Source: Crenobacter luteus (GTDB lineage: Bacteria > Pseudomonadota > Gammaproteobacteria > Burkholderiales > Chromobacteriaceae). Taken from it: a stretch of DNA of 64,000 bases. Shown here piece by piece: positions 33,328 to 48,828 of this stretch. The translations under genes were made by a program, and so were the position numbers. The stretch's first letter is position 1; every line of letters starts with the position of its first letter. The DNA lies in NCBI RefSeq assembly GCF_004345725.1, contig NZ_SLXG01000003.1:1-64000 (forward strand), given 5' to 3'. Under the pieces are notes generated by a model that did no database searches, was not told where the DNA came from, and was given only the letters and a program-made list of their open reading frames with translations.

Positions 33328-33404
<77 letters not shown>

Positions 33405-33410
33405 AATATA

Positions 33411-33446
33411 AACCCCTGATTCAGTTTTCAATTGAATCAGGGGTTT
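33411..33446 (+). terminator. Rho-independent terminator after tRNA-fMet
   Basis: A perfect 13-bp stem AACCCCTGATTCA/TGAATCAGGGGTT followed by TT. Confidence 0.85.
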
Positions 33447-33740
33447 TCCGTTATGTGTCGCTAACGCTGCCACAACCCTGTGGTGTGCAGCGCTGCGCCG
33501 CTTTCAGGCATGCAGCGGTGATAGCGCGGTCAGCACCGGGCTTGAGTGCGTACCGCCTTTTTGCGGTTTTTCGTTGTCCAGCCCCGAGCGTGGGCAGCAC
33601 ACAGATACAGGCATGCGCAGCCCGGGGGAGTCGTTTTGCCAGGGGCGTTTAGCCCGGAAATGACAAGGTTGCTACCTTCAGTTACGATCTTCAGGAAAGA
33701 CGGCCCCATCCCACTGCTGGCATCAGCGTGTGCATATAAC
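33447..33740. other. Left border of the island, no gene seen
   Basis: About 290 bases between the tRNA terminator and the TetR gene. A small hairpin ACCGC/GCGGT with T-run lies near 33552-33571. In-frame upstream codons of the TetR gene exist here but have no ribosome site. I see no attachment-site repeat. Confidence 0.45.
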
Positions 33741-34403
33741 ATGACTAAGTCCCCCACCTCCGAACCGGTCAACCACCGCACCTTGGTCGGTCGGCAGCGC
33801 CGTGAGCGCACACGGCAGAAGATTCTATCTGCCGCGCTCAAGGTGTTTGCACGGACAGGTACCAATGCCCCTTTAATCGAAGATTTCATCGTGGAGGCGG
33901 GTATCGCTCGCGGTACTTTTTACAACTACTTCCGGACCACGGGCGAGTTGTTGGAGGCCACGATAGAATGGCTGAGTGCCGACTTTATCGAGTCGATCGA
34001 GTGCGAGCTCGGCGAACAAACCGACCCCTTGTTGCGCTTGGCGACCGGCCTGCAGTTATGGCTGTACAAGGCGGAGCATGATCTTGCCTGGGCTTCGTTC
34101 GTGGCCCGTCCGGACTTCATCAAACGCCTGCCTTTTGAGCCAGTCTGGCGCGACCTGCATGAAGGCCGGCAAGCGGGCCTGCTTGACTTCCCCAATGAGC
34201 GGGTCGCATTCGATTTGCTGGCAGGTACGATGATCGTCGCCATGCAAGGCTACGTTCAGGGTAATACGCCGGCAGGCTATACCACCGATATCGTTCGCAT
34301 CGTGTTGCAGGGGCTGGGAGTGGAACCGGCCCGGATAGACACGGCACTGTCACACCCCCTGCCCATGGTGCGACGTCTGCCGGTGTCTATGCCTGTAGCC
34401 TGA
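33741..34403 (+). CDS. TetR/AcrR family transcriptional regulator
   Basis: A 220-residue protein with an N-terminal helix-turn-helix of the TetR type: GRQRRERTRQKILSAALKVF, then GIARGTFYNYFRTTGELLEA (residues about 55-75), and a helical ligand-binding domain. ATG 33741 is the most plausible start; longer in-frame forms lack a ribosome site and add low-complexity residues. It is convergent with the catabolic operon and is the only regulator in the island, so it probably controls it. A palindrome upstream of the channel gene (46199-46230) is a candidate operator. Confidence 0.87.
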   Translation: MTKSPTSEPVNHRTLVGRQRRERTRQKILSAALKVFARTGTNAPLIEDFIVEAGIARGTFYNYFRTTGELLEATIEWLSADFIESIECELGEQTDPLLRLATGLQLWLYKAEHDLAWASFVARPDFIKRLPFEPVWRDLHEGRQAGLLDFPNERVAFDLLAGTMIVAMQGYVQGNTPAGYTTDIVRIVLQGLGVEPARIDTALSHPLPMVRRLPVSMPVA

Positions 34404-34436
34404 GCCGGCTTCGTCGCCGGCCGCGGTTATGCCAAG

Positions 34437-36311
34437 CTACGCAGCAACCCAGGTCACCTCATACTTCAGACTGAACCCCGCCATGGCCTCGTTGATGGCC
34501 TGGGTGATTTCGGAATGCAGCGGCTGCGGTGCCGTAAGTACGATCCTGGCATAAACACCATGAACCGGGTGCGGTTCCACGCTGACCTGCCACTCCGACG
34601 CCTGCTGGACACACGGCGCGAGCACGGTGCGCAGCACATGCTCGGTTGCGTCATTGCGCAGATGGGGCTTGAAGACCTTGCCGACGGCCGTAAGCGGCAA
34701 ACTGCCGACGACGAAGATCTCGCCTGGCACTGCCGCGCGCTCTGGGATCGCCGTACGGGCATAATCGATCAGCTCTTCCTGGCTGACGCTCGCCCCCTCG
34801 TGCAGCGTGACATAAGCAACCGGTAACTCGCCGGCGTAACGATCCGGCTTGCCGACGGCCGCCGCAAGCTGGACGGCCGGATGTCGCATGAGGGCCTCTT
34901 CGATCACCGCGGGATCGATATTGTGGCCGCCGCGGATAATCAGTTCCTTTTGCCTGCCGGTAAGCCAGAAATAGCCGTCCGCATCACGCCGGGCCAGGTC
35001 GCCGGTGTTCAGCCATCGACCATCGATCCACAACTTGCGGTTGGCTTCTTCCTGCATGTAACCAGCAAACACGTTGGGACCGCTGATGGTCAACACGCCG
35101 ATTTCATCGACTGCACAATCGCGCACATAGACACCCTGTTCGTCCAGGATCACCGGTTTCATCTGCTGGTAGGGAATGCGCAGGCCGATCGAGCCAGGCC
35201 GGCGCTCCCCATCGCGCGGATTGATCGCACTGATGCAAGTTCCTTCGGTCAGGCCGTAGCCTTCCAATATGCGAATACCTGTGCTCTGTTCAAACTGCCG
35301 GATCAGCGCGGCCGGCATCGGTGCGGCGCCGCAGATGCCGAATCGCAACGACGACAGATCGGCCTCGCCCCGTGGCACGGCCATCAGGGCCGCGTATACC
35401 GTCGGTACGGCCGAGAAGGCGGTAATTTTAAAACGCTCGACCAGTTGCCAAAACTGGGCAAGCATGGCCCGGTTGCGGTAGCCCTGCGGTCCCGCGAGTA
35501 CGACATGCGAGCCGGCCATGAAGGCGGTCAAGCCGGTGACAATGACGCCATTCACATGGAACAGCGGCAGGCCGCACAGCAGGGTGTCGCCGGGACCAAG
35601 GTCGACTGCGACCGTGCCGCACCAGGCGTTCGCCAGCTCGTTACCGTGGCTGTGCCTGGCGGTCTTGGGTGTACCGGTGGTACCGCCGGTATGAAAATAA
35701 GCACAGATATCATCGCGCTTGATACGACGGCCGCTGAGCAGGTGATCCGCCGGCATCTTGAGCCGCTCGATGTCGAACGACAGGGCTCCTTCTTCCGGAG
35801 CTGACTCGTTGACCACCAGAACGGCCTGCAACGACGGGACTTTGCCGCGCAGTTGTACGACCTTATCCCACAACTCCGGCCCAGCGCTGCGCCCGAGCGT
35901 AACCAACACCTTGCAGGAAACCTCGTTCAGCAGCGCCGCAATCTGCTCGGCCTCCAATAGCGGGTTAATCGGGTTGACGATGCCTGCAGCCTGCCCTCCC
36001 CACAATGCGAAGTGGGTCTGCGGCAGATTGGGCAACAGGTAGGACACCACGTCAGACGCCCCTACGCCTAGCGTATGGAACAGATTGGCTGCGCGCGTGA
36101 TGTTGGAGAACAGTTCCTTGTAGCTCACGGTCAATGCCGCTTCGTCGGCAGACCCTTGCGGCAGGAAACTCAATGCCGGGGCATCAGGCCAAGCTTTGGC
36201 CGCGCGTCTGAACACGTCGTAGCTAGAGTCGAAACCCTCCAGACGCTGGTCAAGCGGGGTGGACTCCAACCGCTCGATATCGGCCAGAGAATGAATTGTT
36301 CGGTCACTCAT
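34437..36311 (-). CDS. Acyl-CoA synthetase (AMP-forming)
   Basis: A 624-residue adenylate-forming enzyme of the ANL superfamily. Motifs include the P-loop FHTGGTTGTPKTA, the A5 motif GYGLTEGT, the TGD hinge (LNTGDLARRD), RGGHNIDPAVIEEAL and the C-terminal catalytic lysine in LTAVGKVFKP. It activates a carboxylic acid to its CoA thioester. The substrate is unknown; in this setting it may be an acid released by ring cleavage. The C-terminus extends about 50 residues beyond most relatives. ATG 36311 is preceded by GGAG. It is the last gene of the minus-strand cluster, after a 214-base gap. Confidence 0.88.
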   Translation of the reverse strand: MSDRTIHSLADIERLESTPLDQRLEGFDSSYDVFRRAAKAWPDAPALSFLPQGSADEAALTVSYKELFSNITRAANLFHTLGVGASDVVSYLLPNLPQTHFALWGGQAAGIVNPINPLLEAEQIAALLNEVSCKVLVTLGRSAGPELWDKVVQLRGKVPSLQAVLVVNESAPEEGALSFDIERLKMPADHLLSGRRIKRDDICAYFHTGGTTGTPKTARHSHGNELANAWCGTVAVDLGPGDTLLCGLPLFHVNGVIVTGLTAFMAGSHVVLAGPQGYRNRAMLAQFWQLVERFKITAFSAVPTVYAALMAVPRGEADLSSLRFGICGAAPMPAALIRQFEQSTGIRILEGYGLTEGTCISAINPRDGERRPGSIGLRIPYQQMKPVILDEQGVYVRDCAVDEIGVLTISGPNVFAGYMQEEANRKLWIDGRWLNTGDLARRDADGYFWLTGRQKELIIRGGHNIDPAVIEEALMRHPAVQLAAAVGKPDRYAGELPVAYVTLHEGASVSQEELIDYARTAIPERAAVPGEIFVVGSLPLTAVGKVFKPHLRNDATEHVLRTVLAPCVQQASEWQVSVEPHPVHGVYARIVLTAPQPLHSEITQAINEAMAGFSLKYEVTWVAA

Positions 36312-36525
36312 AGCGCTGCTCCAGGTGTGATCTCTGTAAAGTGTGTGATTGCTGTGGTTGCTACATCCGTCCCCACTCGCGGTGACGTCGATTAAAGGGC
36401 GTCGGCATGAGCCGCCGGCTGGCTGCCGCGTCAAGGCCCGCATCCCGGACACCGGCATGACCTGATCCTGCCGGGGAATGTAGGCCGGCACGCGCTTTAT
36501 CCGCCTTGCGACGCGACGGCGCGCC

Positions 36526-37566
36526 TCACCGTCGACAAACGACAGGAGGCAACAGCAGCGCCCGGCCGGGTCGCTGCCATGCCACATGATCGAAAGCCTG
36601 CCTGGCATTAGCGAAGGGAACGGCAATGCCCACCGGCAGCTTCAGCGCGCCTTCACTCAGCAAGCGATGCAGCGCGTCGAGCGCTTCTTCTTCCGGTTTG
36701 AACACGACCCAGCCGTAACGGGCCCCTTTGGCCGTGGCCAACGTTCTGGCGCGCTGAAAGTCACGCCGGGTTCGCCAGGCGCCGCCAATCCAGCCGTGCT
36801 TGTCAAAATTCGGCAGCAAGGGGTGAACCGTGGTCGCCATGCCCAGTGCCCCCGGCTTGAGTGCCGCGATCAGCGTTTCCTCGTCCTGCCAGGCGCCAAA
36901 ATTCAGCGCCGCGTCGTAGCACTGCGGCAAGCCGGATAAAGGTTGGCGCTTGCGATCCCAAACCCCGGTCGCACCGAGGCTTTTGCAAACCTCGACATTC
37001 TGCGTAGCACAGATCGCGGTCACGATTGCCCCCCAGCGTCGCAGTAGCTGGATGGCCAGTCGGCCGAGCCCGCCGGAGGCGCCGTGTACCAGTACTTCGC
37101 ACCCCCTGGCGTTGGCCTCGCTGATGCCAGCCTTGCACAGCGATTGCCACAGCGTGGTAAAGGTGTATGGAAAAGCCGCCAGAGCGTGGGCGTCGTGACC
37201 CGCGACGAAGGGGCGGAGCCAGCGCGCGTCCACCGCCACATGGGTCGCGTACGCACCATTCTTCCCCGTCGGAACAAGACCGAAGACGCGGTCTCCCGGG
37301 CGCCAGCTTGTGACTGCCGGACCGACGGCCTCGACGACGCCGGCGATATCGTTTCCCAACACCAGCGGGAATCGTCCTGCCCCCCTGAGCGTCAACAAAC
37401 GTTGGCCGTAGCCGCCTGCGCGCTTGACGTCGATAGGATTGACGGCCGCCGCTTCGACGCGCACCACGACCTGCCCCTTGCCAGGTTGCGGCACGGGCAT
37501 GGCCTCGATCCTGAATGCCGGCAACTCCGCGGGAGAGGTGCAGAGAAGACGCTGGCCAACATTCAT
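36526..37566 (-). CDS. MDR-family NAD(P)-dependent oxidoreductase (quinone-oxidoreductase-like)
   Basis: A 346-residue medium-chain dehydrogenase/reductase without the catalytic zinc Cys/His set. It shows the N-terminal GroES-like fold (VEAAAVNPIDVKRAGGYG, GNDIAGVVEAVG, PGDRVFGLV) and the nucleotide-binding VHGASGGLGRLAIQL (an AxxGxxG variant). Such enzymes reduce quinones or enones. The start overlaps the stop of the preceding FAH-family gene by ATGA (37563-37566), so the two are translationally coupled. A role in reducing a ring-cleavage intermediate is inference from position. Confidence 0.85.
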   Translation of the reverse strand: MNVGQRLLCTSPAELPAFRIEAMPVPQPGKGQVVVRVEAAAVNPIDVKRAGGYGQRLLTLRGAGRFPLVLGNDIAGVVEAVGPAVTSWRPGDRVFGLVPTGKNGAYATHVAVDARWLRPFVAGHDAHALAAFPYTFTTLWQSLCKAGISEANARGCEVLVHGASGGLGRLAIQLLRRWGAIVTAICATQNVEVCKSLGATGVWDRKRQPLSGLPQCYDAALNFGAWQDEETLIAALKPGALGMATTVHPLLPNFDKHGWIGGAWRTRRDFQRARTLATAKGARYGWVVFKPEEEALDALHRLLSEGALKLPVGIAVPFANARQAFDHVAWQRPGRALLLPPVVCRR

Positions 37567-38519
37567 TTAGCGACGACCTTCGTGCGTTGCTGACCGAGAT
37601 CCAGCGCGCCGTCGTCGGTACGAATGCTCAGCGTCATGACATCGTTGGGCTGAAGGTAGAGCGGATTCTTCGTCGCTTTCGCGATGAAGGCCTTCCACTT
37701 CGCCGCATCGGACATGAAGTGTTTGAGAATGAACATGACCAGTTTGCCCGGTGCCTTGGCGGCACAACCGGCCGGCGTGCCGGTCGCGATCAGGTCGCCA
37801 GCCTGCATATCGTGCATCGCGGCCAGCTCGGTCAGGGTTTGGGCTGGCTTGAACAGCATCTCGCCACAGTAGGCTCGCTGCCGGACATCGCCATTGACGC
37901 TCAGCGTCATGTTCAACTCGCGCCAGCGCCGCCACTCCTGCGGTTCGAGCAGCAGCAATACCGGGCCGGTCGGGCCGAAGGTGCGGTAGCTCTTGCCCTT
38001 GTAGAACTGGCCCTGTGGCAGTTGTACGTCGCGCGCCGATACGTCGTTGACGATGGTCACGCCCGCCAGTACCTCGTGCAGTCGGTCGTCGCTGACCACC
38101 TCGCCGGGCACCAGATCCCGCGCCAGCACCAGACCCAGCTCGATCTCATAGTCCAGCAGTTTTACGTGAGCTGGGCGCACCACGTCGTCGTAGGGGCCGC
38201 TGATGCAGGAGGGCGCCTTGGTGAAGATGGTGTTGAACGGGAAGTTCTTCGGGTCGAGGCCGGATTCGCGCACGTGGCTCTCGTAATTGACACCCTGGCA
38301 GATGAACTGCTGATTCGCGGTCACCGGCGGCAGCACGCGGACGCTGCCCAGGTCGATCGTCGCTTGGGCGGCAGTCAATTGCCGGGCGGCGTCGCGCCCT
38401 TTGCGGACGACATCGGCGGTCGTCGGGTAGTCGCCCGCCAGCGGGGCGATCTTGTTGCCGAAGACAACGCCCCACTGTGGCGTGCCATTGGAGAGGAAAC
38501 GGATCAGTTGGGTAGCCAT
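37563..38519 (-). CDS. Fumarylacetoacetate hydrolase family enzyme
   Basis: A 318-residue FAH-superfamily protein. The metal-binding ExE motif is in LLDYEIELGLVLARD, and GVTIVNDVSARDVQ and DLIATGTPAGCAAKAPGKL are conserved catalytic and substrate regions. The superfamily hydrolyses C-C bonds in 2,4-diketo acids or isomerises/decarboxylates them, usually after ring cleavage. ATG 38519 follows AAGGAA at good spacing; an in-frame ATG at 38540 does not. It lies 21 bases after the dioxygenase gene. Confidence 0.9.
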   Translation of the reverse strand: MATQLIRFLSNGTPQWGVVFGNKIAPLAGDYPTTADVVRKGRDAARQLTAAQATIDLGSVRVLPPVTANQQFICQGVNYESHVRESGLDPKNFPFNTIFTKAPSCISGPYDDVVRPAHVKLLDYEIELGLVLARDLVPGEVVSDDRLHEVLAGVTIVNDVSARDVQLPQGQFYKGKSYRTFGPTGPVLLLLEPQEWRRWRELNMTLSVNGDVRQRAYCGEMLFKPAQTLTELAAMHDMQAGDLIATGTPAGCAAKAPGKLVMFILKHFMSDAAKWKAFIAKATKNPLYLQPNDVMTLSIRTDDGALDLGQQRTKVVAK

Positions 38520-38540
38520 GGTACTTCCTTGAGCGTTCAA

Positions 38541-39680
38541 TTAGAGCCAGGGGCGGGCCGGGGTATCGAGCGTCTTGCCGATCAGACGCAGCTTGGCCAT
38601 GCTCAGTCGCCCCTGCCAGATGAGTTTCAGGGCGCGCCAGACGAGCCCCAGCGACTTGGCGGGAAAGATTTCGCGGGGGGCATCGTCGCCCCAGGCCCAG
38701 ATGCTGCCCGTCGAAAACGGCACGTAGCGCGTCTCGTAGTCGGCGGTGAACACGTCGCCGTCGGTGTAGTGCTCGAAGTCGAAGCCGTCCGCGTCCTTCC
38801 AGTAGTCGAACAACTGGCTGCCCAGCAGGTGCCGACCGATGCCCCAGAAATGCTTGTGACCGCGTGCATGCATGACCTGTTGGCCCTGACCCAGCGCATC
38901 CAGGTCGATGACCTCCCAAGCGCTGTGCTCGTACCGCGGCTCCAGCGCACTTGCCAACACAAAGGTGTGGTGATCCGCAGGTTGCTCGCCAAGATCGAGT
39001 CTGAAGAAGGTCACAATGGGCGAGCCGTCTTCGAGGTATTGCACGTCGGTCGGGATGATCCCGATGTGACGCATATACCACTCGGCCATGGCTTCGAAGT
39101 TGGCGGTCTGGTAGACGAAATGGCCCAGCCTGCCAACCAGGGCCGGAGCGATGGCCGAACGGACCGTCCTGTTGACGCGCCGGATGTCACCCAGCACGTT
39201 CATGTCCTGCTGCAGTGACGGCCGGGTCGGCAAGGCCGGTACGGAGCCCCAGTCGGTGATCAGCCAAAGGTCGTTGCCATCCGGATCGACGAGTGCGACG
39301 CCGCGGCCACCGCCGGGGATCAGCTCGGGCGCGAGCGGTTTGGCCTGGCTCTCCCGCTCCAGCCGCGCGAAGTCGGTGTCGGCGGGCACCACGAACGCCG
39401 CCCCGGCAAAGCGGGGGCGCTCGGACTTCGTCGCCACCAGGATGGCCGGTGCGGTGCCGGCGCCGCGCATCACCAACTGCTCGGCGCTACGGGATACCGT
39501 CACCAGGCCGAAATCGCTCCAGAAACGCTCGGCTTCGATCAGATCCTTCTTTTCGAAGCGCAGGAAGGCAAGCTGGGTCGCCTTTTGCCACGGCCGTGGC
39601 CGTACCAGTTTCTTGACATGCTGGGGAGCCTGGCTGGAGGGGTACTCGGGTGGCGCCTGCAGTTCGTTGGACTTCTTCAT
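38541..39680 (-). CDS. Type I extradiol dioxygenase (VOC superfamily), long form
   Basis: A 379-residue two-domain vicinal-oxygen-chelate protein. The metal ligands are H187 (GRLGHFVYQT), H252 (YEHSAWEV) and E303 (FDFEHYTDGD), spaced 65 and 51 residues apart, the same as in BphC-type extradiol dioxygenases. The second-sphere residues H237/H238 (DHHTFV), H284 (GIGRH) and Y293 (FDYW) are also present. About 60 residues extend beyond the usual C-terminus. It should cleave a catechol-like ring next to the diol with Fe(II) and O2. ATG 39680 follows GGAAGGA. It is a paralogue of the enzyme at 43649-44563. Confidence 0.85.
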   Translation of the reverse strand: MKKSNELQAPPEYPSSQAPQHVKKLVRPRPWQKATQLAFLRFEKKDLIEAERFWSDFGLVTVSRSAEQLVMRGAGTAPAILVATKSERPRFAGAAFVVPADTDFARLERESQAKPLAPELIPGGGRGVALVDPDGNDLWLITDWGSVPALPTRPSLQQDMNVLGDIRRVNRTVRSAIAPALVGRLGHFVYQTANFEAMAEWYMRHIGIIPTDVQYLEDGSPIVTFFRLDLGEQPADHHTFVLASALEPRYEHSAWEVIDLDALGQGQQVMHARGHKHFWGIGRHLLGSQLFDYWKDADGFDFEHYTDGDVFTADYETRYVPFSTGSIWAWGDDAPREIFPAKSLGLVWRALKLIWQGRLSMAKLRLIGKTLDTPARPWL

Positions 39681-39717
39681 AAACACTGTCCTTCCTTGAA
39701 ACAAATTGGCCCGTGAA

Positions 39718-40554
39718 TCAGGCGATACGAATTTCGCCCAGATACAGGCTTTCCGTGAGTTCGCAGTCGATCCGCGCCCGCCCCAGTGCGTGACGGATTT
39801 CGACGCGATAGGCACCGCTCGCCCTGTCCAGATCGCCAAAACGGAAGTCGCCGAAGTCGTCGCTGTGCGTTGCGGCGATTATCTTCTCCCCCTGGAATAG
39901 CACGACGTCGGCACCGGCAACGCAATCGATGACCCCCGAAACGCTGGCGCTGACGCTGCCGCCGATGAAGCACTTCTCCCAGCGATCCAGATTCCGGTAA
40001 TAGACGCGAGGTTTGGCATTCAGCTTGGGCAGCAGCGTCCGCAGCCCCTCCTTGCCGGCTTTTTCCTGCATGGCCTTATCGTCGAGCTTGACCGCCTCGA
40101 ATACTTCGGTCGGGCAGGACTGCTGACAGCGCGGGCCTTTCCAGCCGGCGTCCAGCAGATGGGCGTCGAAAATCCAGGTCTGCGGCACCTGTTGCTCTTC
40201 ATTCCAGACGATGGCTTTGTAGGGGCAGGAACGGACGATATCCTTGCGCCCCTTCGCCTTGACCGGGTCAATGATGACGATGCCATCGTCGCGTTTGCTG
40301 ATCGCGTCGCCGCCGACCTTCATGCACGGCGCATCGTCGCAGTGGTTGCACATCACCGGCAGGTAGGTCGTCTCGACCATCGGCGCCTCTCCCTGCACTC
40401 GGCGCAGGATGCGGATCGGCGCCTCGCTGGCGAGAGACGCGGGCGCCGCGTAGCCCGGATAGTCGTTGCCGACATGTTCGTCGCGGTCGGCGATCACGCA
40501 GTTGTAGCAGTTCTCGCAACGCCCGACGTTGATGATCAGATTCCACTTAGTCAT
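39718..40554 (-). CDS. Iron-sulfur electron-transfer subunit of a transhydroxylase-like molybdoenzyme
   Basis: A 278-residue protein with a DmsB/NrfC-like ferredoxin part (residues 1-190; cysteines C13, C16, C19, then CNHCDDAPC at 69-77, C110, C143 and C147; nine in all, enough for two cubane clusters) and a C-terminal beta-sandwich (from about residue 195; FIGGSVSASVSGVIDCVAGA, DDFGDFRFGDL) of transthyretin/Cna-B type. This ferredoxin-plus-beta-domain design is known from the small subunit of pyrogallol-phloroglucinol transhydroxylase and its relative resorcinol hydroxylase. The start overlaps the large-subunit stop by 8 bases. The assignment to that subfamily is by architecture. Confidence 0.8.
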   Translation of the reverse strand: MTKWNLIINVGRCENCYNCVIADRDEHVGNDYPGYAAPASLASEAPIRILRRVQGEAPMVETTYLPVMCNHCDDAPCMKVGGDAISKRDDGIVIIDPVKAKGRKDIVRSCPYKAIVWNEEQQVPQTWIFDAHLLDAGWKGPRCQQSCPTEVFEAVKLDDKAMQEKAGKEGLRTLLPKLNAKPRVYYRNLDRWEKCFIGGSVSASVSGVIDCVAGADVVLFQGEKIIAATHSDDFGDFRFGDLDRASGAYRVEIRHALGRARIDCELTESLYLGEIRIA

Positions 40555-43546
40555 GGGCCACTCCTGCTTCGATACGGCTGTGTTTGAAGGCTTCGGCTCC
40601 CTGCCATTTCTCGATCTGGACCAGACACGAGTTCGGGCTCATGCTGCTGGTCCCCTGGGTCTGCGGCCGGTCCGGGGTGAGCATGTTCATGCAGCCACCG
40701 ATTTCGACCACTTCGCCGGCCACCTCCACCAGCTGGAACTCGGCACTGGCTTCAAAGGACTTGACCACCCCCGGCACCACCAGCGCCGACACATCGGCGG
40801 CGCAGATCACCGCACCGCGGTCGTTCCAGACCTTGACCAGATCGCGGTGTGCAATGCCGCGTGCAACCGCATCGGCGGGGCTGATGCGCAGCAGCCAGAA
40901 GTCGTGGCCGGCGATACGGGCGCGATGGTCCTGCACCCGGCTGGTCACGCTGCTCTTGCCGTCGCTGGAGGTATGGAAGCTGTAGCGCGAGTGGGTCGCG
41001 ATCATCTGCAGCGGATACTTGGCGGCCAGTTCGCTTGTGCCCAGACCTTCCCACGAGGGGATGTAACGGTTGAGCGCTGGCCGCTCGGGGTTGTCCCTGG
41101 TATGGCGCTTGAGGATTTCCGGCACGAACTCGATCTTGCCGCTGGGGGTCTGCAGCCCCTTGCCGAACTCGTCGGCGAATTGCGAAGGCAGCGGATGCGG
41201 CTCCGGCACATCCTTGCGGCGGTCTTCTGCGAACCAGCGCATGTCTACCGGCGCGCGCAGCTCCGGCCTTTCCGGTGGCACGACGTAGTAACCCTTGCGG
41301 CAGAATTCGGCCCAGGAGATCCTCTCCGGCAAGTCCGAGGAGTCGAACATCCGCTTGACCCAGTCCAGTTCGCTGCACCCCTCGGTGAACACGCCGCCCA
41401 GCCCCAGCCGTTCCAGAATGGCCGTGAAGATGTCGTAGTCGGAACGCGACTCGCCGAGCGGCTCGATGCACTTGTGCTGCAGCGTCACCAGACGATGGTT
41501 GACCAGGGTATAGCCGTGGTGGGCATAACCGCCCGAATTGCACCATTCGCCGATGTCCCAACGCTCAAGCTGGGTGCAGGCCGGCAGGATGACGTCGGCG
41601 AACTGCGCTTCGCCCTCCATCCAGATCGACTGGTTGACCACGAATTCGATGCTGTCGTGGCGGTAGGCGTCGATCCAGCGACCGGACTTGGTGACGGTGC
41701 TGAACGCCGAACCGCCGTAGCGGTAGATCATGTGGATCGGCGAATAGCCGGGTATCGGATAGGTGAAGGGCGCGAACTGCGCCTCCTGCGACATGCCGTC
41801 CCAGATATAACCGGTGGCATGGCCGTCGATGATGGCGTCGGGCAGTTGCTGCCGCGGAACCAGCTGCTTTACCGGATTCATGGTCAGGATGTGCGGCATG
41901 CGCTGGTAATTGTTCACCGCGTTGCCGGTCCACATCAGGTCGCCGGAAATCCCGCCGTCGGCATAGCCGGGGAAATAGAAGTGATGGTCCACCGGCGTAC
42001 CGATTTGCAGGCAGCCGAAGTTGACGCCGGGTTTGCCCCAGCCCTGCATAGCCATCATCATGATCAGGCAGCGTGCCCACTGCTGGCCGGTGGCGCCGCG
42101 ACCAGCACCGCCGAAGCCGGCGCCGGTCATGCCGGTCGCCAGATAGACCTTTTTGTTACCCCACTTGCGCGCCAGCGCGCGCACGTCCTTGGCCGGCACG
42201 CCGGTTTCGGCCTCCTGCCATTCGGGAGTCTTGGCGATGCCATCGGTCTCGCCCAGCAGGTAGGCTCTCCACTCGTCGAAACCGGTAGTGCGGGCCGCGA
42301 CGTAGTCCTTGTCGTACAGGCCTTCGACGGTCCACACATACATGATGGCGATGGCCAGCGCGGCGTCGGTTTGCGGCCGGATCGGAATCCAGCGTCCGCC
42401 GAGCAACTGTGCGGTCGGGTTGTTATGCGGGTCGATATGCACGAACTCGATGCCGAGTTCCTTGGCCCACAGACGGCGCGTCGTGCCCTCGAAGCCGGCG
42501 TAGGCGCCGTTGGTGCTCTCCGGGTCGCAGGACCAGAAGACGATCATCTCGGCTTCCTTCAAGCAGTCCTCGACCGTGCTATAGCCTGCCGGCACACCGA
42601 TGCGCATCGAATTGCCGAAGTGATGCGTGGCGCCCCAGTACCAGCCCTCCCAGCTGTCAGGGTTGGCCGCAACGCGGGTGAAACCGATCAGGTTGGCGAA
42701 GCGCATCAGCGAACTGAGGTAATAGCCGACATTGCCCCACGAATGATGCGACGACATCGGGAAGGTGATCGAGCCGGGGCCGTGCACGCGCTTCTGGCGC
42801 TTGATTTCCTTGCTGACGATGTCCAGCGCCTCGTCCCAACTGATCGGCACATAGCCCGACTTGCCACGGTTTTGCGGGTTGCGCTCGCCATCGGGGTCGA
42901 AATCGACCCGCCTCATCGGCTGCAGAATGCGCTTGTCGGAATAGACCAGCGACTTCAGCGACAGCGCGTGCGGCGCCACCAAGGCGCGGCGCTGCGGGCG
43001 GAAGGTCTTGCCGCGCGCCTGCAGCTCCCAGCTTGGCGCGTCCTTGTCGTCGAGCTCGAGAGGCGTGACGCGCTGGATGCGACCATTCTTGACGTAGACG
43101 AACAGCGGCCCGCCGTTGGTGCAGGTAGTGTAACGCCGGGTGCCGTCGCGCATCGCGACGCCCATCTCCAGGCCGACGGTCTGGCTGAGATTGAGCGTCT
43201 GCATGAACCAGACGACCAGCTGATCCGGTCCCTTGGCGACGACCTTGAAATTCTTGGCGGCATGGATGATCTCGCCCTGGTCCGGGTTGGGCATCAGGAA
43301 TTTGAGAGCGGTCGGCAGATCCTTGAACAGCATGCTGACATCGGCATCGGTTGCCTTGCCGGCGCGGGCCATTACCTTGCCGCCGCGGATTTCCAGGAAG
43401 CGGCCGATGCTGCCATCCTGCAAGCCGATATAGGCGGTGCAGTTTCTCTGCAGCAGGCGCGTGCGGAACGCCGGGTACTTGCGGGCGGTAAAGCCGAGCA
43501 CCTTGGGCAGGGCGAACAGGATGGTCTTGAGGAGTAGTTTCTTCAT
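40547..43546 (-). CDS. Molybdopterin oxidoreductase, transhydroxylase/resorcinol-hydroxylase-like large subunit with N-terminal SCP2-like domain
   Basis: A 999-residue protein in two parts. Residues about 20-115 form an SCP2 (sterol-carrier)-like domain: a hydrophobic helix (KTILFALPKVLGF), then CTAYIGLQDGSIGRFLEIRG, KATDADVSML and a closing helix. From about residue 130 a bis-MGD molybdopterin domain follows with WDEALDIVSKEIK, FPMSSHHSWGN, HHFGNSMRIG (likely Ser ligand to Mo), FWSCDPESTNG and the C-terminal ATHSRYSFHTSS/MSPNSCLV region. The N-terminal edge has a single cysteine, so no 4Fe-4S site, as in transhydroxylase. No Tat signal is seen, so it should be cytoplasmic. ATG 43546 is chosen; its ribosome site is poor. 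Confidence 0.82.
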   Translation of the reverse strand: MKKLLLKTILFALPKVLGFTARKYPAFRTRLLQRNCTAYIGLQDGSIGRFLEIRGGKVMARAGKATDADVSMLFKDLPTALKFLMPNPDQGEIIHAAKNFKVVAKGPDQLVVWFMQTLNLSQTVGLEMGVAMRDGTRRYTTCTNGGPLFVYVKNGRIQRVTPLELDDKDAPSWELQARGKTFRPQRRALVAPHALSLKSLVYSDKRILQPMRRVDFDPDGERNPQNRGKSGYVPISWDEALDIVSKEIKRQKRVHGPGSITFPMSSHHSWGNVGYYLSSLMRFANLIGFTRVAANPDSWEGWYWGATHHFGNSMRIGVPAGYSTVEDCLKEAEMIVFWSCDPESTNGAYAGFEGTTRRLWAKELGIEFVHIDPHNNPTAQLLGGRWIPIRPQTDAALAIAIMYVWTVEGLYDKDYVAARTTGFDEWRAYLLGETDGIAKTPEWQEAETGVPAKDVRALARKWGNKKVYLATGMTGAGFGGAGRGATGQQWARCLIMMMAMQGWGKPGVNFGCLQIGTPVDHHFYFPGYADGGISGDLMWTGNAVNNYQRMPHILTMNPVKQLVPRQQLPDAIIDGHATGYIWDGMSQEAQFAPFTYPIPGYSPIHMIYRYGGSAFSTVTKSGRWIDAYRHDSIEFVVNQSIWMEGEAQFADVILPACTQLERWDIGEWCNSGGYAHHGYTLVNHRLVTLQHKCIEPLGESRSDYDIFTAILERLGLGGVFTEGCSELDWVKRMFDSSDLPERISWAEFCRKGYYVVPPERPELRAPVDMRWFAEDRRKDVPEPHPLPSQFADEFGKGLQTPSGKIEFVPEILKRHTRDNPERPALNRYIPSWEGLGTSELAAKYPLQMIATHSRYSFHTSSDGKSSVTSRVQDHRARIAGHDFWLLRISPADAVARGIAHRDLVKVWNDRGAVICAADVSALVVPGVVKSFEASAEFQLVEVAGEVVEIGGCMNMLTPDRPQTQGTSSMSPNSCLVQIEKWQGAEAFKHSRIEAGVAHD

Positions 43547-43648
43547 GGGGGGCAATCTTGAATCGGGTCCCGCTGCCGGAGGTTCTGCCCGCTGCGTTTT
43601 GCCGCGGACAGAACTCGTCGGCCATGGGTTAAGGGATGTCCGGAATGG

Positions 43649-44563
43649 TCACAGACCAGGGAAGGGCGGCCCCCACTGCAACAGCGTGTCGCGGCCGAAC
43701 GGGTAACGCAGCGTCGGCGTGTCGGCGTTGACCATGTCGCCATCGGAGTAGTGCTCGACATGGAAACCGGCCGGATCGGTCCAGTAGTCGAAGATCTGGC
43801 TGCCGTGGAAGTGGCGGCCGATACCCCAGCGGTGCTTGTAGCCCTTGTCCTGCATCAGCATGTGGCCGGTGCCGACATCGTCGAAATCGCGGCATTCGAA
43901 GGACGCGTGATCCAGCCCCGGCGCCGCTGCCTGCACGATGGCGAGGGTGTGGTGGTCGGTCCATTCGGCGCCCTTGTCGAGGTGCATGAAGGCCGCCAGC
44001 ACATTCGCCTCGTTACCGTCGTGGATCAGCTCGGAGGGTTTCAGGCCGAGGTTATGCCCGTACCACTCGATCATCTGCTGGGCGGCCGACGAGAACACGG
44101 CCAGATGGCCGAGCCGCTGGATGTGCGACGGTCCATACCCCGGACGCTGGTATCGGCCGAGACGGTTCTTGGCGTGCGCATCGTTCCAGACGATGGGCTC
44201 GCCACCGCAGGGAAGCGGCTCCAAACGCCGGGCACCAAAGCCGAATTCGAGCCGACGTCCTTCCGGATCGGTGGTATGGAAATAGCGGCCGCCACCGGGG
44301 TGCGGGCAATCGGTGATGTCGGCGCCGAAACGGGTGGCCAATTGCAGCAAGGCGTCCTCACTGGCGACCCGGAAGCCCATGCCGACAAAGGCGGCATCGC
44401 CTTGCGTCGTGACATAGGAAAACGGTGCACCGCCATAGGAGCGCAGATAAAGTGCATCATCCTGCTGCACCGCATCCAGCAAACCGTAATCGAGCATGAA
44501 TTGGCGAATGGCAGCCAAGTCGGGATGACGGAAAATGACGTATTCAATATCGTCGATCAGCAT
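43649..44563 (-). CDS. Type I extradiol dioxygenase (BphC-like, VOC superfamily)
   Basis: A 304-residue two-domain protein, the standard BphC size. Ligands H153 (RLGHLAVF), H219 (GLDHASFE) and E270 (HVEHYSDGD) have BphC-like spacing (66 and 51). H205 (DHHTLA), H251 (GIGRHFHG) and Y260 (FDYW) match the acid-base residues. It should cleave a catechol or trihydroxybenzene ring with O2. RBS AAGGAAAG precedes ATG 44563. Strong local identity with the island's second dioxygenase (both contain GIGRH, GSQ-F-DYW and the EHY-DGD motif) shows gene duplication. Confidence 0.87.
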   Translation of the reverse strand: MLIDDIEYVIFRHPDLAAIRQFMLDYGLLDAVQQDDALYLRSYGGAPFSYVTTQGDAAFVGMGFRVASEDALLQLATRFGADITDCPHPGGGRYFHTTDPEGRRLEFGFGARRLEPLPCGGEPIVWNDAHAKNRLGRYQRPGYGPSHIQRLGHLAVFSSAAQQMIEWYGHNLGLKPSELIHDGNEANVLAAFMHLDKGAEWTDHHTLAIVQAAAPGLDHASFECRDFDDVGTGHMLMQDKGYKHRWGIGRHFHGSQIFDYWTDPAGFHVEHYSDGDMVNADTPTLRYPFGRDTLLQWGPPFPGL

Positions 44564-44802
44564 TTAACTTTCCTTCTCGTTCCAACAACCCCCGTGCGCC
44601 AAAGTGCCATCGCGGGTCCAAAGACACGCTGTTAGCCGGCGAGCCCGCTTCAAGCGGATGGAGGCCACGAGCGAAGGCTGGGAATCCATACCGCTCGCGA
44701 TCGGCGAAAACCTGTATCCGCCCCATTTATCCGCACCACGGATGCAGATGCGACGTCCGCTGTCAGGCAAATAGCTTGACGTAGCAGGGGGAAAACCTTC
44801 GC

Positions 44803-46134
44803 TCAGAATTTGTGGGTGAGGCCGATCCCGAGCAGGTTGGCGTGGCTGCGGTAGCGGCCATGCAGCGTGCCCGGGCGGTCGGTGCTACTGCCGTCGTAGT
44901 TGTTGGCGCTGCGGTCGATGGCCGCTTCTTTGAACTTCAGATAGCTGTAGGCGACATCGACCGTGTTGTGCTCATCGATCCGGTAGCTGGCCCCCAGCGA
45001 AAGCATTTGCCGATCGCTGTCCGGCATCAGCGGCTGGGCGTAGCGAGAGTCGGAAACGGGCGAGTGGTCATACATATACCCCCCGCGCAGTGTCCATTGC
45101 CCGTCAAGCCGGTAGCTCGCACCGAGCGAGGCACGCCAGCTGTTTTTCCATTCGAGTTTGTCGGTGGCTTTGCGATCGGGATCCTGCGCGGTCGGCATCT
45201 CGATCACGAGGGACTGGAAGCGGCTATGGCGGGACCAGGTCACATCGCCCATGATCGCCCAGCGGGAATCCAGCTGTTGGTAAGCATGGAGGGTGAGCGT
45301 TTCCGGCGTGGTCAGATCGACCGAGCTATCGCTGTCGTCGAGGGCGCCCGTACCCTTGACCAGTTGCGACACCGGCGTGCCGGGGACGGAATAGCGGGCA
45401 TTGCCCCGCAGCGTATGCTTGATGAAAGAACGGTATGCGACGCCGATGCGGGTATCCGAAGTGGGCGTAAACAGGTAGCCGAGATTGAAGCCGTATCCCC
45501 AGTCATCGCCGGTCACACGGATTCTGGAATCGGGCTCAGACGAGACGAAGCTCAGCTTCTTCTCCAGCACCGCATCCATATATTGCGCCGTGACGCCGAA
45601 ACCGATGCTGTGCTGTTCGCTCAGCTTGAGCGCGATCGAGGGGTTGATCGCGATCGACTTCAAATCAATCGCGCTGCCGTAATAGCGGCCGGCAAAATCG
45701 TCGTCATACTTGATTTTGGCGCCGAACGGCGCGTATACGCCGACCCCGGCGGTCAACTGCTCGTTCAGGCGGTGCGCCAGGTAGAAGTGTGGCGCCACGG
45801 CGGTCTTGGCGTAGCGCCCGCCGCCGCCGGCCGGAGAGACCGGAGCGCTATTGCCGAAGATGTCGTTGCGGGTGGCCGCGCTGCCGCTGAACGCCGAATG
45901 CGGGACGACAATGTCGGCGCCAACGGTCAGCTGGCTGCTGTCCAGCTGCGTCAGCCCCGCCGGGTTGTAGAAAATCGCGGAAGGGTCGGCCGCCTCAGCC
46001 GAGCCGGCGTTCGAGCTGCCCTGCGCCCTGATGCTTTGCAATTCCAGTTGATAGCCGGCAGCCCAAGCCGCCTGGGCTGCACCATATGCAGCGGCAGCCA
46101 GTATGGCATGCCTCGCCATTGTCCTCTTCGACAT
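44803..46134 (-). CDS. Outer-membrane hydrophobic-compound channel, FadL/TodX family
   Basis: A 443-residue outer-membrane protein: signal peptide cut near WAAGY, then the FadL hatch signature AGYQLELQSIRAQGSSNAGSA (quoted as key residues AGSAEAADPSAIFYNPAG), alternating beta strands and the terminal aromatic residue in GLTHKF. The NPAGLTQL motif is diagnostic. FadL/TodX proteins take up long-chain fatty acids or aromatic hydrocarbons. ATG 46134 follows AAGGAG. It is the first gene of the cluster, 239 bases before the next gene, and a palindrome lies about 65 bases upstream. Confidence 0.93.
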   Translation of the reverse strand: MSKRTMARHAILAAAAYGAAQAAWAAGYQLELQSIRAQGSSNAGSAEAADPSAIFYNPAGLTQLDSSQLTVGADIVVPHSAFSGSAATRNDIFGNSAPVSPAGGGGRYAKTAVAPHFYLAHRLNEQLTAGVGVYAPFGAKIKYDDDFAGRYYGSAIDLKSIAINPSIALKLSEQHSIGFGVTAQYMDAVLEKKLSFVSSEPDSRIRVTGDDWGYGFNLGYLFTPTSDTRIGVAYRSFIKHTLRGNARYSVPGTPVSQLVKGTGALDDSDSSVDLTTPETLTLHAYQQLDSRWAIMGDVTWSRHSRFQSLVIEMPTAQDPDRKATDKLEWKNSWRASLGASYRLDGQWTLRGGYMYDHSPVSDSRYAQPLMPDSDRQMLSLGASYRIDEHNTVDVAYSYLKFKEAAIDRSANNYDGSSTDRPGTLHGRYRSHANLLGIGLTHKF

Positions 46135-46198
46135 TCCCGTCTCCTTTGTGCATTGTGAAGCTCGCCCTCTTCGTAGCGTCCTTCGACTTTGATTCAAA

Positions 46199-46230
46199 AA
46201 CATCAATAGTGTCAACTTGACATTGATGTT
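46199..46230. promoter_or_regulatory. Candidate TetR operator upstream of the island operon
   Basis: The core TGTCAACTTGACA (46210-46222) is a perfect palindrome, flanked by AACATCAA and TTGATGTT (46199-46206 and 46223-46230), also complementary, with a slightly off-centre spacing. It lies 65-96 bases upstream of the channel gene, where a repressor would block transcription. Binding by the island's TetR protein is inferred. Confidence 0.5.
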
Positions 46231-46344
46231 CACAAAGAAAACGAAGCGATTGTCGTTTTTATGTCACCTGGCGCGCAGGGGGCTGCAAGGAATCGAGCCC
46301 GTGGCGGTGTTGCTGCCGTGTCAACCGCGTGGACGGGTCGGTTC

Positions 46345-46536
46345 CGGGCCCGGGGCAGGCCGGATCCCTTTCTCGAGGCGCAGCTTGTACCCGAACCGTT
46401 CGAGGCCGCCTGCGCCGACGCCGGCCAGCCGCTGACCCTGAGGCGCCACGCCGGCTACGACCACGGTTATTATTTCGTCTCCACCTTCGTCGAGGACCAC
46501 CTGCGCCACCACGCCGAACGCCTGTCGGCGCGCTGA
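46345..46536 (+). pseudogene. Truncated 3' end of S-formylglutathione hydrolase (fghA remnant)
   Basis: The frame ending at 46536 matches only the last 57 or so residues of S-formylglutathione hydrolase: DPFLEAQLVPEPFEAAC, AGQPLTLRRHAGYDHGYYF (with the catalytic His in GYDH) and TFVEDHLRHHAERL. The N-terminal two-thirds, including the catalytic Ser region, are missing; upstream in-frame codons do not resemble the family. The remnant lies at the right border of the island, as if the gene were cut when the island arrived, and just before a formate-dehydrogenase-like gene. Confidence 0.7.
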
Positions 46537-46551
46537 CGCGCGGCATCCGCC

Positions 46552-48828
46552 ATGAGCCAGAAATTCCGCATCGAACCCTACGCCGGCCCCGCCGGCGGCT
46601 GGGGCGCGCTCAAGAGCACCACCCGCCACCTGCTGAACAGCGAGCAGGCGCTGAGCAACCTGAAGACGCTCGCCAACACCAACCAGCCGGGCGGCTTCGA
46701 CTGTCCCGGCTGCGCGTGGGGCGAGGGCAAGCACAGCGGCCGGGTCAGCTTCTGCGAGAACGGCGCCAAGGCGGTGAACTGGGAGGCGACCGCGCGCCGC
46801 GTCGACGCCGTCTTCTTCGCCGAGCATTCGGTCGCCTCGCTGTACGCGCAGAGCGACCACTGGCTCGAAGCGCAGGGCAGGTTGGCCGAGCCGATGGTCT
46901 ACGACGCGCAAACCGACCACTACCGGCCGATCTCGTGGGACGGCGCCTTCGCGCTGATCGCCCGGCACCTGAAGGCGCTCGATTCGCCCGACCAGGCCGA
47001 GTTCTACACCTCGGGGCGCACCAGCAACGAGGCGGCCTACCTGTACCAGTTGTTCGTGCGCGCCTACGGCACCAACAACCTCCCCGACTGCTCGAACATG
47101 TGCCACGAGGCCAGCGGCGTCGCGCTCAGGCGCAGCGTCGGCGTCGGCAAGGGCACGGTGACGATGGACGACTTCGAGCGGGCCGACGCGATCTTCGTGT
47201 TCGGCCAGAACCCCGGCACCAACCACCCGCGCATGCTCGACACCTTGCGCGACGCGGTCCGGCGCGGCGCGCAGGTGGTCGCGGTCAACCCCTTGAAGGA
47301 GCGGGGGCTCGAGCGCTTCACCCACCCGCAGCACCCGCTCGAGATGCTCGCCGGCGGCGGCACGACGATGCACACCCGCTACGTGCAGCCCAGGCTCGGC
47401 GGCGACATGGCGCTGGTGCGCGGCATGGTCAAGTCGCTCTTGGCCGCCGAACGCGCTGCGCAAGAGCGGGGCGAGCCGCCGGTGTTCGACCACGCCTTTC
47501 TCGCCGAGCACGCCGCGGGGCTGGCCGACTATCTCGCCGAAGTCGACGCGACGGGCTGGGACGCGATCGAAACCCAGAGCGGCGTCGCACGCGCGACCAT
47601 CGAAGGGTTGGCCGAGGTCTACCGCCGCGCCGAGCGCGTGATCGCGACCTGGGCGATGGGCATCACCCAGCACAAGCATTCGGTCGCGACGATCCAGGAA
47701 ATCGCGAATCTCATGCTGCTGCGCGGCAACGTCGGCAAGGAGGGCGCCGGCCTGTGCCCGGTGCGCGGCCACAGCAATGTGCAGGGCGACCGCACGATGG
47801 GCGTCAACGAACGGCCGGCCGACGCCTTCCTCGACGCGCTCGGCCAACGTTTCGGCTTCGCGCCGCCGCGCCGCCACGGCCACGCGGTGGTCGAGGCGAT
47901 CGAAGCGATGCGCGCCGGGCAAAGTCGGGTGTTCTTCGCGCTCGGCGGCAACTTCGCCGCCGCGACGCCGGACACCGCCGCGACCGAGGCGGCGCTGCGG
48001 AACTGCGACTTGACGGTGCAGGTCAGCACCAAGCTCAACCGCAGCCACCTGGTGGTCGGCAAGGCCGCGCTGATCCTGCCCTGCCTGGGCCGCACCGAGA
48101 TCGATATTCAGGCCGGCGCGCCGCAGCGGATCACGGTCGAGGACTCGATGAGCATGGTGCACGCCTCGGCCGGCGTGCTCGAACCGGCGTCGGCGCAGCT
48201 CAAGTCCGAGCCGTCTATCGTCGCCGGGCTCGCCGAGGCGGTGCTCGGCAAGTGGCCGGTCGACTGGGCGTGGTTGGTCGAGGACTACGACCGCATCCGC
48301 GAGCTCGTCGCCGACACCGTCCCCGGCTTCGAGGACTTCAACGCGCGCCTCGCTTCGCCGCGCGGCTTCTATCTGGGCAACAGCGCGCGCGAGCGGCGCT
48401 GGCAGACCGACAGCGGCCGCGCCCACTTCGCCGCCGCGCCGCTGCCGGACCACCTCGAGTCGCACGAGGGCGAGCTGGCCTTGCAGACGCTGCGCTCGCA
48501 CGACCAGTACAACACCACCGTCTACGGCCTCGACGACCGATATAGAGGCGTGTTCGGCGGGCGGCGCGTGGTGTTCGTGTCCGCCGCCGACCTCGCGCGG
48601 CTCGGCTTCAAAGCCGGCGAGACGGTGAACCTCGTCGCCGAGTGGGGCGACGGCGTGACGCGCCGCGCCGACGGCTTCACGCTGGTCGAGTACGACATCC
48701 CGGCCGGCTGCGCCGCCGCCTACTACCCGGAAACCAACCCGCTCGTCGCGCTTGCGAGCGTCGGCGACGACAGCCGCACGCCGACGTCCAAGTTCGTGCC
48801 GATCCGGCTCGAGCGCAGCGGGCCTTGA
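46552..48828 (+). CDS. FdhF/YdeP-family molybdopterin oxidoreductase
   Basis: A 758-residue protein with the FdhF/YdeP layout. It has the N-terminal GGFDCPGCAWGEGK, the molybdenum-cysteine motif NMCHEASG, the MGD-binding FGQNPGTNHP and NRSHLVVGKAALILP, RGHSNVQGDRTMGV and the C-terminal RSHDQYNTTVYGLDDRYRG. Relatives include E. coli YdeP and FdhF; formate oxidation is possible but not proven. Only two cysteines lie at the N-terminus, so a 4Fe-4S cluster is doubtful. The fghA remnant before it and a cytochrome c gene after it suggest formaldehyde/formate oxidation linked to the respiratory chain. Confidence 0.85.
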   Translation: MSQKFRIEPYAGPAGGWGALKSTTRHLLNSEQALSNLKTLANTNQPGGFDCPGCAWGEGKHSGRVSFCENGAKAVNWEATARRVDAVFFAEHSVASLYAQSDHWLEAQGRLAEPMVYDAQTDHYRPISWDGAFALIARHLKALDSPDQAEFYTSGRTSNEAAYLYQLFVRAYGTNNLPDCSNMCHEASGVALRRSVGVGKGTVTMDDFERADAIFVFGQNPGTNHPRMLDTLRDAVRRGAQVVAVNPLKERGLERFTHPQHPLEMLAGGGTTMHTRYVQPRLGGDMALVRGMVKSLLAAERAAQERGEPPVFDHAFLAEHAAGLADYLAEVDATGWDAIETQSGVARATIEGLAEVYRRAERVIATWAMGITQHKHSVATIQEIANLMLLRGNVGKEGAGLCPVRGHSNVQGDRTMGVNERPADAFLDALGQRFGFAPPRRHGHAVVEAIEAMRAGQSRVFFALGGNFAAATPDTAATEAALRNCDLTVQVSTKLNRSHLVVGKAALILPCLGRTEIDIQAGAPQRITVEDSMSMVHASAGVLEPASAQLKSEPSIVAGLAEAVLGKWPVDWAWLVEDYDRIRELVADTVPGFEDFNARLASPRGFYLGNSARERRWQTDSGRAHFAAAPLPDHLESHEGELALQTLRSHDQYNTTVYGLDDRYRGVFGGRRVVFVSAADLARLGFKAGETVNLVAEWGDGVTRRADGFTLVEYDIPAGCAAAYYPETNPLVALASVGDDSRTPTSKFVPIRLERSGP

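Follow-up and report, generated by a model that had tools for sequence, protein, structure and literature searches.

How does a molybdenum enzyme whose family has so far been known from oxygen-free metabolism come to be encoded among oxygen-dependent ring-cleavage enzymes? The question is raised by the first 64,000 nucleotides of contig NZ_SLXG01000003.1 of Crenobacter luteus (assembly GCF_004345725.1), the whole of which we call the window. Its reverse strand encodes a transhydroxylase-type molybdenum large subunit (MoL) and an iron-sulfur small subunit (FeS) between two type I extradiol dioxygenases (EDO1 and EDO2), in the company of an FAH-family hydrolase, an acyl-CoA synthetase (ACS) and a FadL-type porin. 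The best joint explanation of the evidence, and one that we consider probable, is that these genes were acquired horizontally and that MoL-FeS would hydroxylate a hydrophobic phenol with oxygen derived from water, after which extradiol cleavage, the FAH enzyme and CoA activation would follow. What would be new is that the DMSO-reductase/transhydroxylase family, here fused to a lipid-carrier domain, hydroxylates a phenol ahead of O2-dependent ring cleavage.

Identity of the molybdenum enzyme and its partners

The large subunit (40547..43546, reverse strand; 999 aa) matches PF21423 (AhtL-like, 84 bits against a cut-off of 27), PF00384 and PF01568. Among solved structures, by far the closest is the large subunit of pyrogallol hydroxytransferase (4v4c_A, 910 bits, E = 1.6e-272), compared with 240 bits (E ~1e-70) for DMSO reductase, and it is ~50% identical to AthL over 843 aa. 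Full-length similarity and the AhtL-like first domain place it in the AthL-type family. All 83 MoL relatives share the Mo-ligand Ser175 and the residues His144, Trp176 and Tyr404, while 75 have Asp174 and 79 have Tyr560, and the window protein carries the full set; the roles of these residues are those assigned in the published AthL structure. The MoL tree was built by a quick method and its AthL and outgroup branches are long; within it the window protein nests, with starred support, among Pseudomonas sequences at 91% identity, and the branches near the base include strict anaerobes that lack an EDO gene. The initial annotation of this stretch had held that a grouping of MoL with unrelated molybdoenzymes would refute its reading. 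Similarity, catalytic residues and tree all group it with AthL, and an arsenite, polysulfide or DMSO type of enzyme is ruled out on the same three grounds.

EDO1 (43649..44563, reverse strand; PF00903, E = 7e-10) and EDO2 (38541..39680, reverse strand; PF00903), the latter similar to 3b59, both have the two-module VOC fold with an H-H-E iron site. The triad, aligned to BphC and 3b59, is invariant in 51/51 to 52/52 relatives. A predicted structure of EDO1 (pLDDT 91) scores Z 33.3 to 3b59 and 32 to catechol 2,3-dioxygenases, and the range is Z 31-33 when homoprotocatechuate dioxygenase is included. These are the only two EDO1-like genes found in the entire 2.86 Mb genome, and both lie less than 4 kb from MoL. 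Because the set also recurs in unrelated genera and in varied gene orders, the proximity of MoL and EDO is more than chance.

The FAH-family hydrolase (37563..38540, reverse strand; PF01557, E = 1e-47) is acylpyruvase-like and has the E-x-E...D metal site and His/Glu dyad of its superfamily (H89, E92, E132, E134 and D166 in the window protein). The metal ligands are conserved in 53/53, 53/53 and 52/53 relatives, the catalytic His in 53/53 and the Glu in 47/53, and among its relatives are 2,4-diketo-3-deoxyrhamnonate hydrolase and FAHD1 acylpyruvase. ACS (34437..36311, reverse strand) is an AMP-forming enzyme of the PRK07529 type (NF005714, 843 bits against a cut-off of 632). The porin (44803..46134, reverse strand; PF03349, E = 2e-94) scores 113.6 bits against Escherichia coli FadL and 34-45 bits against CymD, TbuX and TodX, and by these alignments it resembles long-chain fatty acid FadL much more than the TodX/TbuX/CymD proteins.

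Profile matches, solved relatives and the H-H-E triad bear out the identities and locations that the initial annotation gave to MoL, FeS, EDO1, EDO2, the FAH enzyme, the MDR reductase and ACS. Its account of 4-8 bp overlaps is right at two junctions, MoL/FeS (8 bp) and FAH/MDR (4 bp), but the FAH gene abuts EDO2 without a gap and the remaining junctions are gapped. The genes in its proposed unit (37563-46134) are real, but the functional unit is larger, and FadL, a TetR regulator and a 137-residue N-terminal domain of MoL had gone unmentioned.

Recurrence of the gene set

When 84,980 species genomes were scanned, more than 540 MoL relatives emerged, of which the best 80 were retained; with genomes G012 and G046 these give 82 loci, in which EDO genes were counted within ~10 kb of MoL. 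EDO is present at 42 of the 82 and EDO with FAH at 40, and among the 54 loci whose MoL is at least 64% identical, the corresponding count is 40. The MoL-EDO-FAH combination spans Pseudomonas, Burkholderiales and Alphaproteobacteria. Two genomes from other genera of the window's own family (G012 and G460) hold the set in other orders, with FadL, MoL, EDO, FAH, FeS, ACS and TetR; their ACS is 76-81% identical to that of the window. Elsewhere the company varies: Pseudomonas clusters include moaA and an old-yellow-enzyme homologue, Burkholderiales clusters have EDO-FAH-ACS-OmpW, Comamonadaceae-type genomes have DUF1302-DUF1329-MMPL-EDO-FAH-MoL-FeS plus ALDH and ADC, or BKACE, and Pseudomaricurvus alkylphenolicus has MoL-FeS-EDO-FAH.

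The distribution is patchy. MoL occurs in 3 of 61 genomes of the window's family, and a search with the full protein found 6 among 399 genomes of its order (~1.5%), the spread expected if the genes were transferred. Pfam PF21423 returned almost no matches over 398 genomes of the phylum, its 55-position model being a poor probe.

Several relatives have other neighbours. At six rhizobial loci (L035, L040, L041, L055, L062 and L127), two small VOC proteins of ~170 and ~225 aa lie between ACS and FAH in place of the two-module EDO and are possibly a different ring-cleavage enzyme. In sister MoL clades that lack EDO (L068, L069 and L071), MoL-FeS adjoins genes for pyruvate-dehydrogenase-like E1/E2/E3 and ALDH, in some cases with DUF1302/DUF1329/MMPL as well. 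This arrangement resembles the anaerobic resorcinol route and probably serves an O2-independent ring cleavage of the same kind of substrate. A separate Burkholderiales clade of MoL-FeS (L094, L097, L103-L106 and L111; 57-59% identity) also lacks EDO, and some of its members have a 4,5-dihydroxyphthalate decarboxylase-like protein nearby; this clade likely acts on a different substrate.

Exchange with flavin hydroxylases

Plasmid-borne EDO1 relatives and the genes around them allow an operon-level comparison. Burkholderia stagnalis has TetR-EDO-FAH-ACS-OmpW-MoL-FeS, and B. multivorans (plasmid NZ_CP020399) has TetR-FMO-EDO-FAH-ACS-OmpW, in which FMO is a flavin monooxygenase; the shared proteins are 69% (TetR), 78% (EDO), 76% (FAH), 75% (ACS) and 49% (OmpW) identical. 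Related arrangements occur in Microvirga (NZ_CP016618; FMO-EDO-ACS-MDR, plus FAH and TetR) and Prescottella (EDO-FAH-FMO), and a two-component (HsaA-type) flavin monooxygenase accompanies EDO, FAH and BKACE in B. cenocepacia and P. largidicola. By family, the FMOs fall into the 3-(3-hydroxyphenyl)propionate hydroxylase group. In some genomes both kinds of hydroxylase coexist. At the Trinickia mobilis locus (L063, 2986-14900), an FMO that is 76% identical to that of B. multivorans and MoL-FeS are co-directional and surround EDO-FAH-ACS-OmpW; three Pseudomonas loci likewise hold both MoL-FeS and a flavin hydroxylase, and in Salipiger the two-component type adjoins MoL.

Since the same operon slot holds an FMO in one case and MoL-FeS in the other, MoL-FeS stands in the usual place of O2-dependent phenol hydroxylases. 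This replacement is the strongest functional evidence for a coupling of the molybdenum enzyme to extradiol cleavage. The initial annotation had proposed such a coupling from one locus; conserved neighbourhoods now favor it, and the exchange and co-occurrence with FAD hydroxylases favor it more.

The SCP2-like domain of MoL

MoL residues 1-137 (43136..43546, reverse strand) have no counterpart in AthL. The AlphaFold model of this segment (pLDDT 89) has an SCP2 fold, that of a lipid carrier. Foldseek ranks UbiJ-SCP2 first (E = 4e-6) and alkylsulfatase SCP2 domains next, and against a human SCP2-like domain VIA-align gives Z 11.7, with 112 residues superposed at 2.9 A. The likeness was recognized by fold comparison only: the window domain alone has no match to Pfam PF02036, sequence searches with it gave nothing, and a profile search against PDB sequences found no match. 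Weak matches to PF02036 occur in 7 of 34 relatives, the best at E = 0.0017 and below the gathering score. On the strength of the modeled fold, the domain may present the greasy part of the substrate to MoL. A stand-alone 122-aa SCP2-like homologue of this N-terminal segment is encoded at locus L031 (5136-5504, genome G052), a few genes upstream of another Mo oxidoreductase.

The iron-sulfur small subunit

FeS (39718..40554, reverse strand) is AthS-like, has the C-terminal beta domain, and matches the small subunit of pyrogallol hydroxytransferase best among solved structures (4v4c_B, E = 1e-61). A census of its cysteines found predicted ligands for two of the three [4Fe-4S] clusters that characterize an AthS-type subunit. 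AthS itself and the strict anaerobes L100, L102, L107 and L108 keep Cys23 and both cysteines of the KCTxC motif; in the EDO-associated members without exception, and in nearly all of the remaining proteobacterial ones, Cys23 and the KCTxC pair are gone (WIFDAH) and the predicted ligands of the other two clusters are retained. Following the usual pairing of ferredoxin motifs, we assume that the missing cysteines belonged to a single cluster. The window subunit is a variant of the AthS type and not a different family. Because the ligand loss amounts to one or a few events on the tree, its match with O2-using partners is suggestive only.

A genomic island carries the module

The whole module lies on an island (33409..46348, 12.9 kb, genes on both strands) that is delimited by synteny with the same-genus genome G001 and by base composition. 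Synteny ends at 33408, just beyond the 3' end of a tRNA-Met gene (CAT; 33328..33404, forward strand, found by ARAGORN) that forms the left border, and it restarts at 46349, within the 3' end of an S-formylglutathione hydrolase gene that G001 has in full (TIGR02821, 459 bits). Only a truncated 3' remnant of that gene (46349..46536, forward strand) is left at the right border. GC content is 62.5% in the island and 67.5% outside. Mean third-position GC (GC3) is 0.75 in the island and 0.92 outside; TetR is counted off-frame in that mean, and the other eight genes range over 0.73-0.84. The island contains TetR, ACS, MDR, FAH, EDO1, EDO2, MoL, FeS and FadL and no other notable gene. Two of these are accessory to the proposed chemistry or control it: an MDR reductase of the quinone-oxidoreductase/enoyl-reductase type (36526..37566, reverse strand; PF08240, PF13602), which is present in only part of the clusters, and a TetR-family regulator (33741..34403, forward strand; PF00440), which shares ~60% identity with its counterparts in the G012 and G460 modules.

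The 7.0 kb core from MDR to MoL has 83% DNA identity to Pseudomonas benzenivorans with the gene order kept, and EDO1 is 82% identical to its counterpart there. ACS is instead closest to the G012 module (76% DNA identity), and the best-placed counterparts of TetR and FadL are those of G012 and G460. With core and flanks pointing to different relatives, the island looks like a mosaic. No direct repeat of the tRNA end that could mark an att site was found at the right border, which is a gene truncation, and insertion of the integrase type is not demonstrated. In G001, two near-identical tRNA-Met copies lie ~46 kb apart (C1 548937 and 595220; L142 and L143), and the window combines the left flank of one with the right flank of the other, which suggests that the site was also rearranged. 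Another Mo protein just outside the island (46552-48828) was considered as a member of the system and rejected, since it is a YdeP-type, FdhF-like protein that is syntenic in G001 and native to the host. The host genome also encodes moaA and three heme-copper oxidases, which counts in favor of the proposed pathway, as does the presence of moaA inside the Pseudomonas clusters.

Proposed pathway and substrate

The analysis establishes which genes are present, their key residues and folds, their conserved linkage and the replacement of the hydroxylase; from these we infer the direction of the reaction, the kind of substrate and the order of steps. FadL would let the compound in. By analogy to RhL, the Mo-bisMGD site would hydroxylate the ring ortho to an existing hydroxyl group with oxygen from water and pass two electrons from MoL to the FeS subunit. 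EDO1 or EDO2 could then cleave the new vicinal diol with O2, and the FAH enzyme, if it acts as an acylpyruvase, would split the resulting oxo acid. ACS would activate the released alkyl or 3-oxo acid for beta-oxidation, and the accessory MDR enzyme perhaps reduces a quinone or an enone. The Mo pair would in this way replace or back up a flavin hydroxylase that consumes O2 and NAD(P)H, so that each ring would cost only one O2 and two electrons would be gained.

The SCP2-like domain, the long-chain-type FadL and ACS together point to a phenol that is hydrophobic, probably alkyl-substituted, and broken down with release of a carboxylic acid. For the same reasons, the simple resorcinol type of the initial annotation is too narrow. 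Our leading guess is a phenolic lipid of the 5-alkylresorcinol type. The acylpyruvase dyad of FAH, like the BKACE or ADC genes of other clusters, fits the di- and trioxo acids that would form if a trihydroxybenzene underwent extradiol cleavage, as happens in the classical orcinol pathway. Alkylresorcinol made by the host itself was rejected as a substrate because its genome has no type III polyketide synthase. A fuller version of the proposal is that a mobile module for 5-alkylresorcinol-type phenolic lipids uses an SCP2-fused descendant of the Mo transhydroxylase to replace or accompany a flavin monooxygenase, that it spends O2 on ring cleavage only, as a low-oxygen version of an aerobic pathway, and that the Fe-S loss marks a move from anaerobe to aerobe. 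We hold this version tentatively and rate it at somewhat below an even chance.

Four observations weigh against this explanation. With one Fe-S cluster lost, it is hard to trace how electrons leave the enzyme, and no gene for an electron acceptor was found. The FMO family that shares the operon slot would also allow a 3-alkylphenol instead of a resorcinol. The SCP2-like domain occurs both in MoL relatives without EDO, including those beside pyruvate-dehydrogenase-like genes, and in strict anaerobes, and therefore need not imply a lipid in every case.

The last of these observations also underlies an alternative that we judge unlikely but still the most serious competitor, in which the chemistry is the same, the substrate is a non-lipid phenol of the resorcinol or phloroglucinol type (a flavonoid or stilbenoid ring, orcinol or resorcinol), and the SCP2-like domain is a relic of the subfamily. 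DUF1302/DUF1329/MMPL genes are usually linked to hydrophobic substrates, and their presence beside other clusters speaks against it, as does the inclusion of a long-chain-type FadL and ACS in the compact modules; the decarboxylase-superfamily amidohydrolases near some MoL clusters speak for it. Flavonoid A-ring pathways (fde and ifc) couple a flavin hydroxylase to a glyoxalase-type extradiol dioxygenase (PMC11069340) and so offer a precedent, but their C-C hydrolase is an alpha/beta or cupin enzyme and not an FAH protein.

Two further alternatives separate MoL-FeS from the dioxygenases, and both seem to us highly improbable. MoL-FeS could be a redox-neutral transhydroxylase, as in Pelobacter, or a reductive dehydroxylase, like the gut catechol dehydroxylases, and would then not supply the EDO substrate. 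The nearest solved enzyme is indeed a transhydroxylase, and a lost Fe-S cluster suits chemistry that sends no net electrons out of the enzyme; yet conversion of pyrogallol to phloroglucinol destroys the vicinal diol that EDO requires, the same operon slot is filled by oxidative FAD hydroxylases, and catechol dehydroxylases form a clade apart from the transhydroxylase (PMC7028382). The subunits could also serve an anaerobic branch in which a dehydrogenase complex cleaves a hydroxyquinone oxidatively, with the EDOs as mere neighbors in an independent aerobic branch. Such a division is compatible with the EDO-less sister clades beside pyruvate-dehydrogenase-like genes. However, the E1/E2/E3 genes that mark the anaerobic resorcinol pathway are absent from the island, EDO, FAH and ACS accompany MoL in many genera despite rearrangement, and the exchange with flavin hydroxylases takes place at the level of the operon. 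Hydroxylation by MoL-FeS followed by extradiol cleavage accordingly remains our preferred explanation.

Confirmation of this explanation would reveal a way to save oxygen and reducing power while keeping oxygenolytic ring cleavage, describe a route for phenolic lipid degradation, and correct the annotation of many genes now labeled only as 'molybdopterin-dependent oxidoreductase' or 'VOC family protein'. The family is found here in ordinary aerobes (Pseudomonas, Burkholderia and rhizobia) as a swappable part of extradiol pathways, and near-identical operons that differ in the hydroxylase alone amount to a natural experiment.

Comparison with known systems

A literature search that covered few subscription journals found no account of a transhydroxylase/extradiol combination or of alkylresorcinol catabolic genes, which is weak evidence that none exists; the strain name A-RE-19, tried as a clue to the substrate, likewise led to no paper. 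The initial annotation regarded the combination as undescribed, which stands for this Mo family; molybdenum hydroxylation followed by O2-dependent cleavage is itself known from the xanthine-oxidase family. Hydroxylases of that family act with dioxygenases on quinoline, nicotinate and similar rings. These routes share water-derived hydroxylation and subsequent ring opening by O2 with the proposed pathway, but their Mo family and cofactor are unrelated and their substrates are N-heteroaromatic.

The closest enzymes belong to anaerobes. Both subunits are homologous to those of the pyrogallol-phloroglucinol transhydroxylase of Pelobacter acidigallici (AthLS/PgtL; 4v4c), with which they share the Mo-ligand Ser, His144, Asp174 and Tyr404 and the beta domain of the small subunit. 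The module differs in its extra SCP2-like domain, in having one [4Fe-4S] cluster fewer, and in its O2-dependent ring-cleavage partners, where Pelobacter has a fermentative pathway. RhLS of Azoarcus anaerobius and PgtL are Ser-ligated enzymes of anaerobic metabolism (PMC10100899), and RhLS probably shares its reaction type, a hydroxylation with net release of electrons, with MoL-FeS. It operates in anaerobic respiration with non-oxygenolytic ring cleavage, whereas the module has extradiol dioxygenases, FAH and ACS.

The closest pathways are aerobic. In the fde (naringenin) and ifc (isoflavone) A-ring pathways, ring hydroxylation likewise precedes extradiol cleavage by a glyoxalase-family enzyme, but the hydroxylase is an FAD enzyme, the C-C hydrolases are different, and there is no Mo enzyme. 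The operons of B. multivorans (NZ_CP020399) and Microvirga (NZ_CP016618) have orthologous EDO, FAH, ACS and TetR and a shared gene order, and they differ in using an FAD monooxygenase that consumes O2 and NAD(P)H where the module has the Mo pair.

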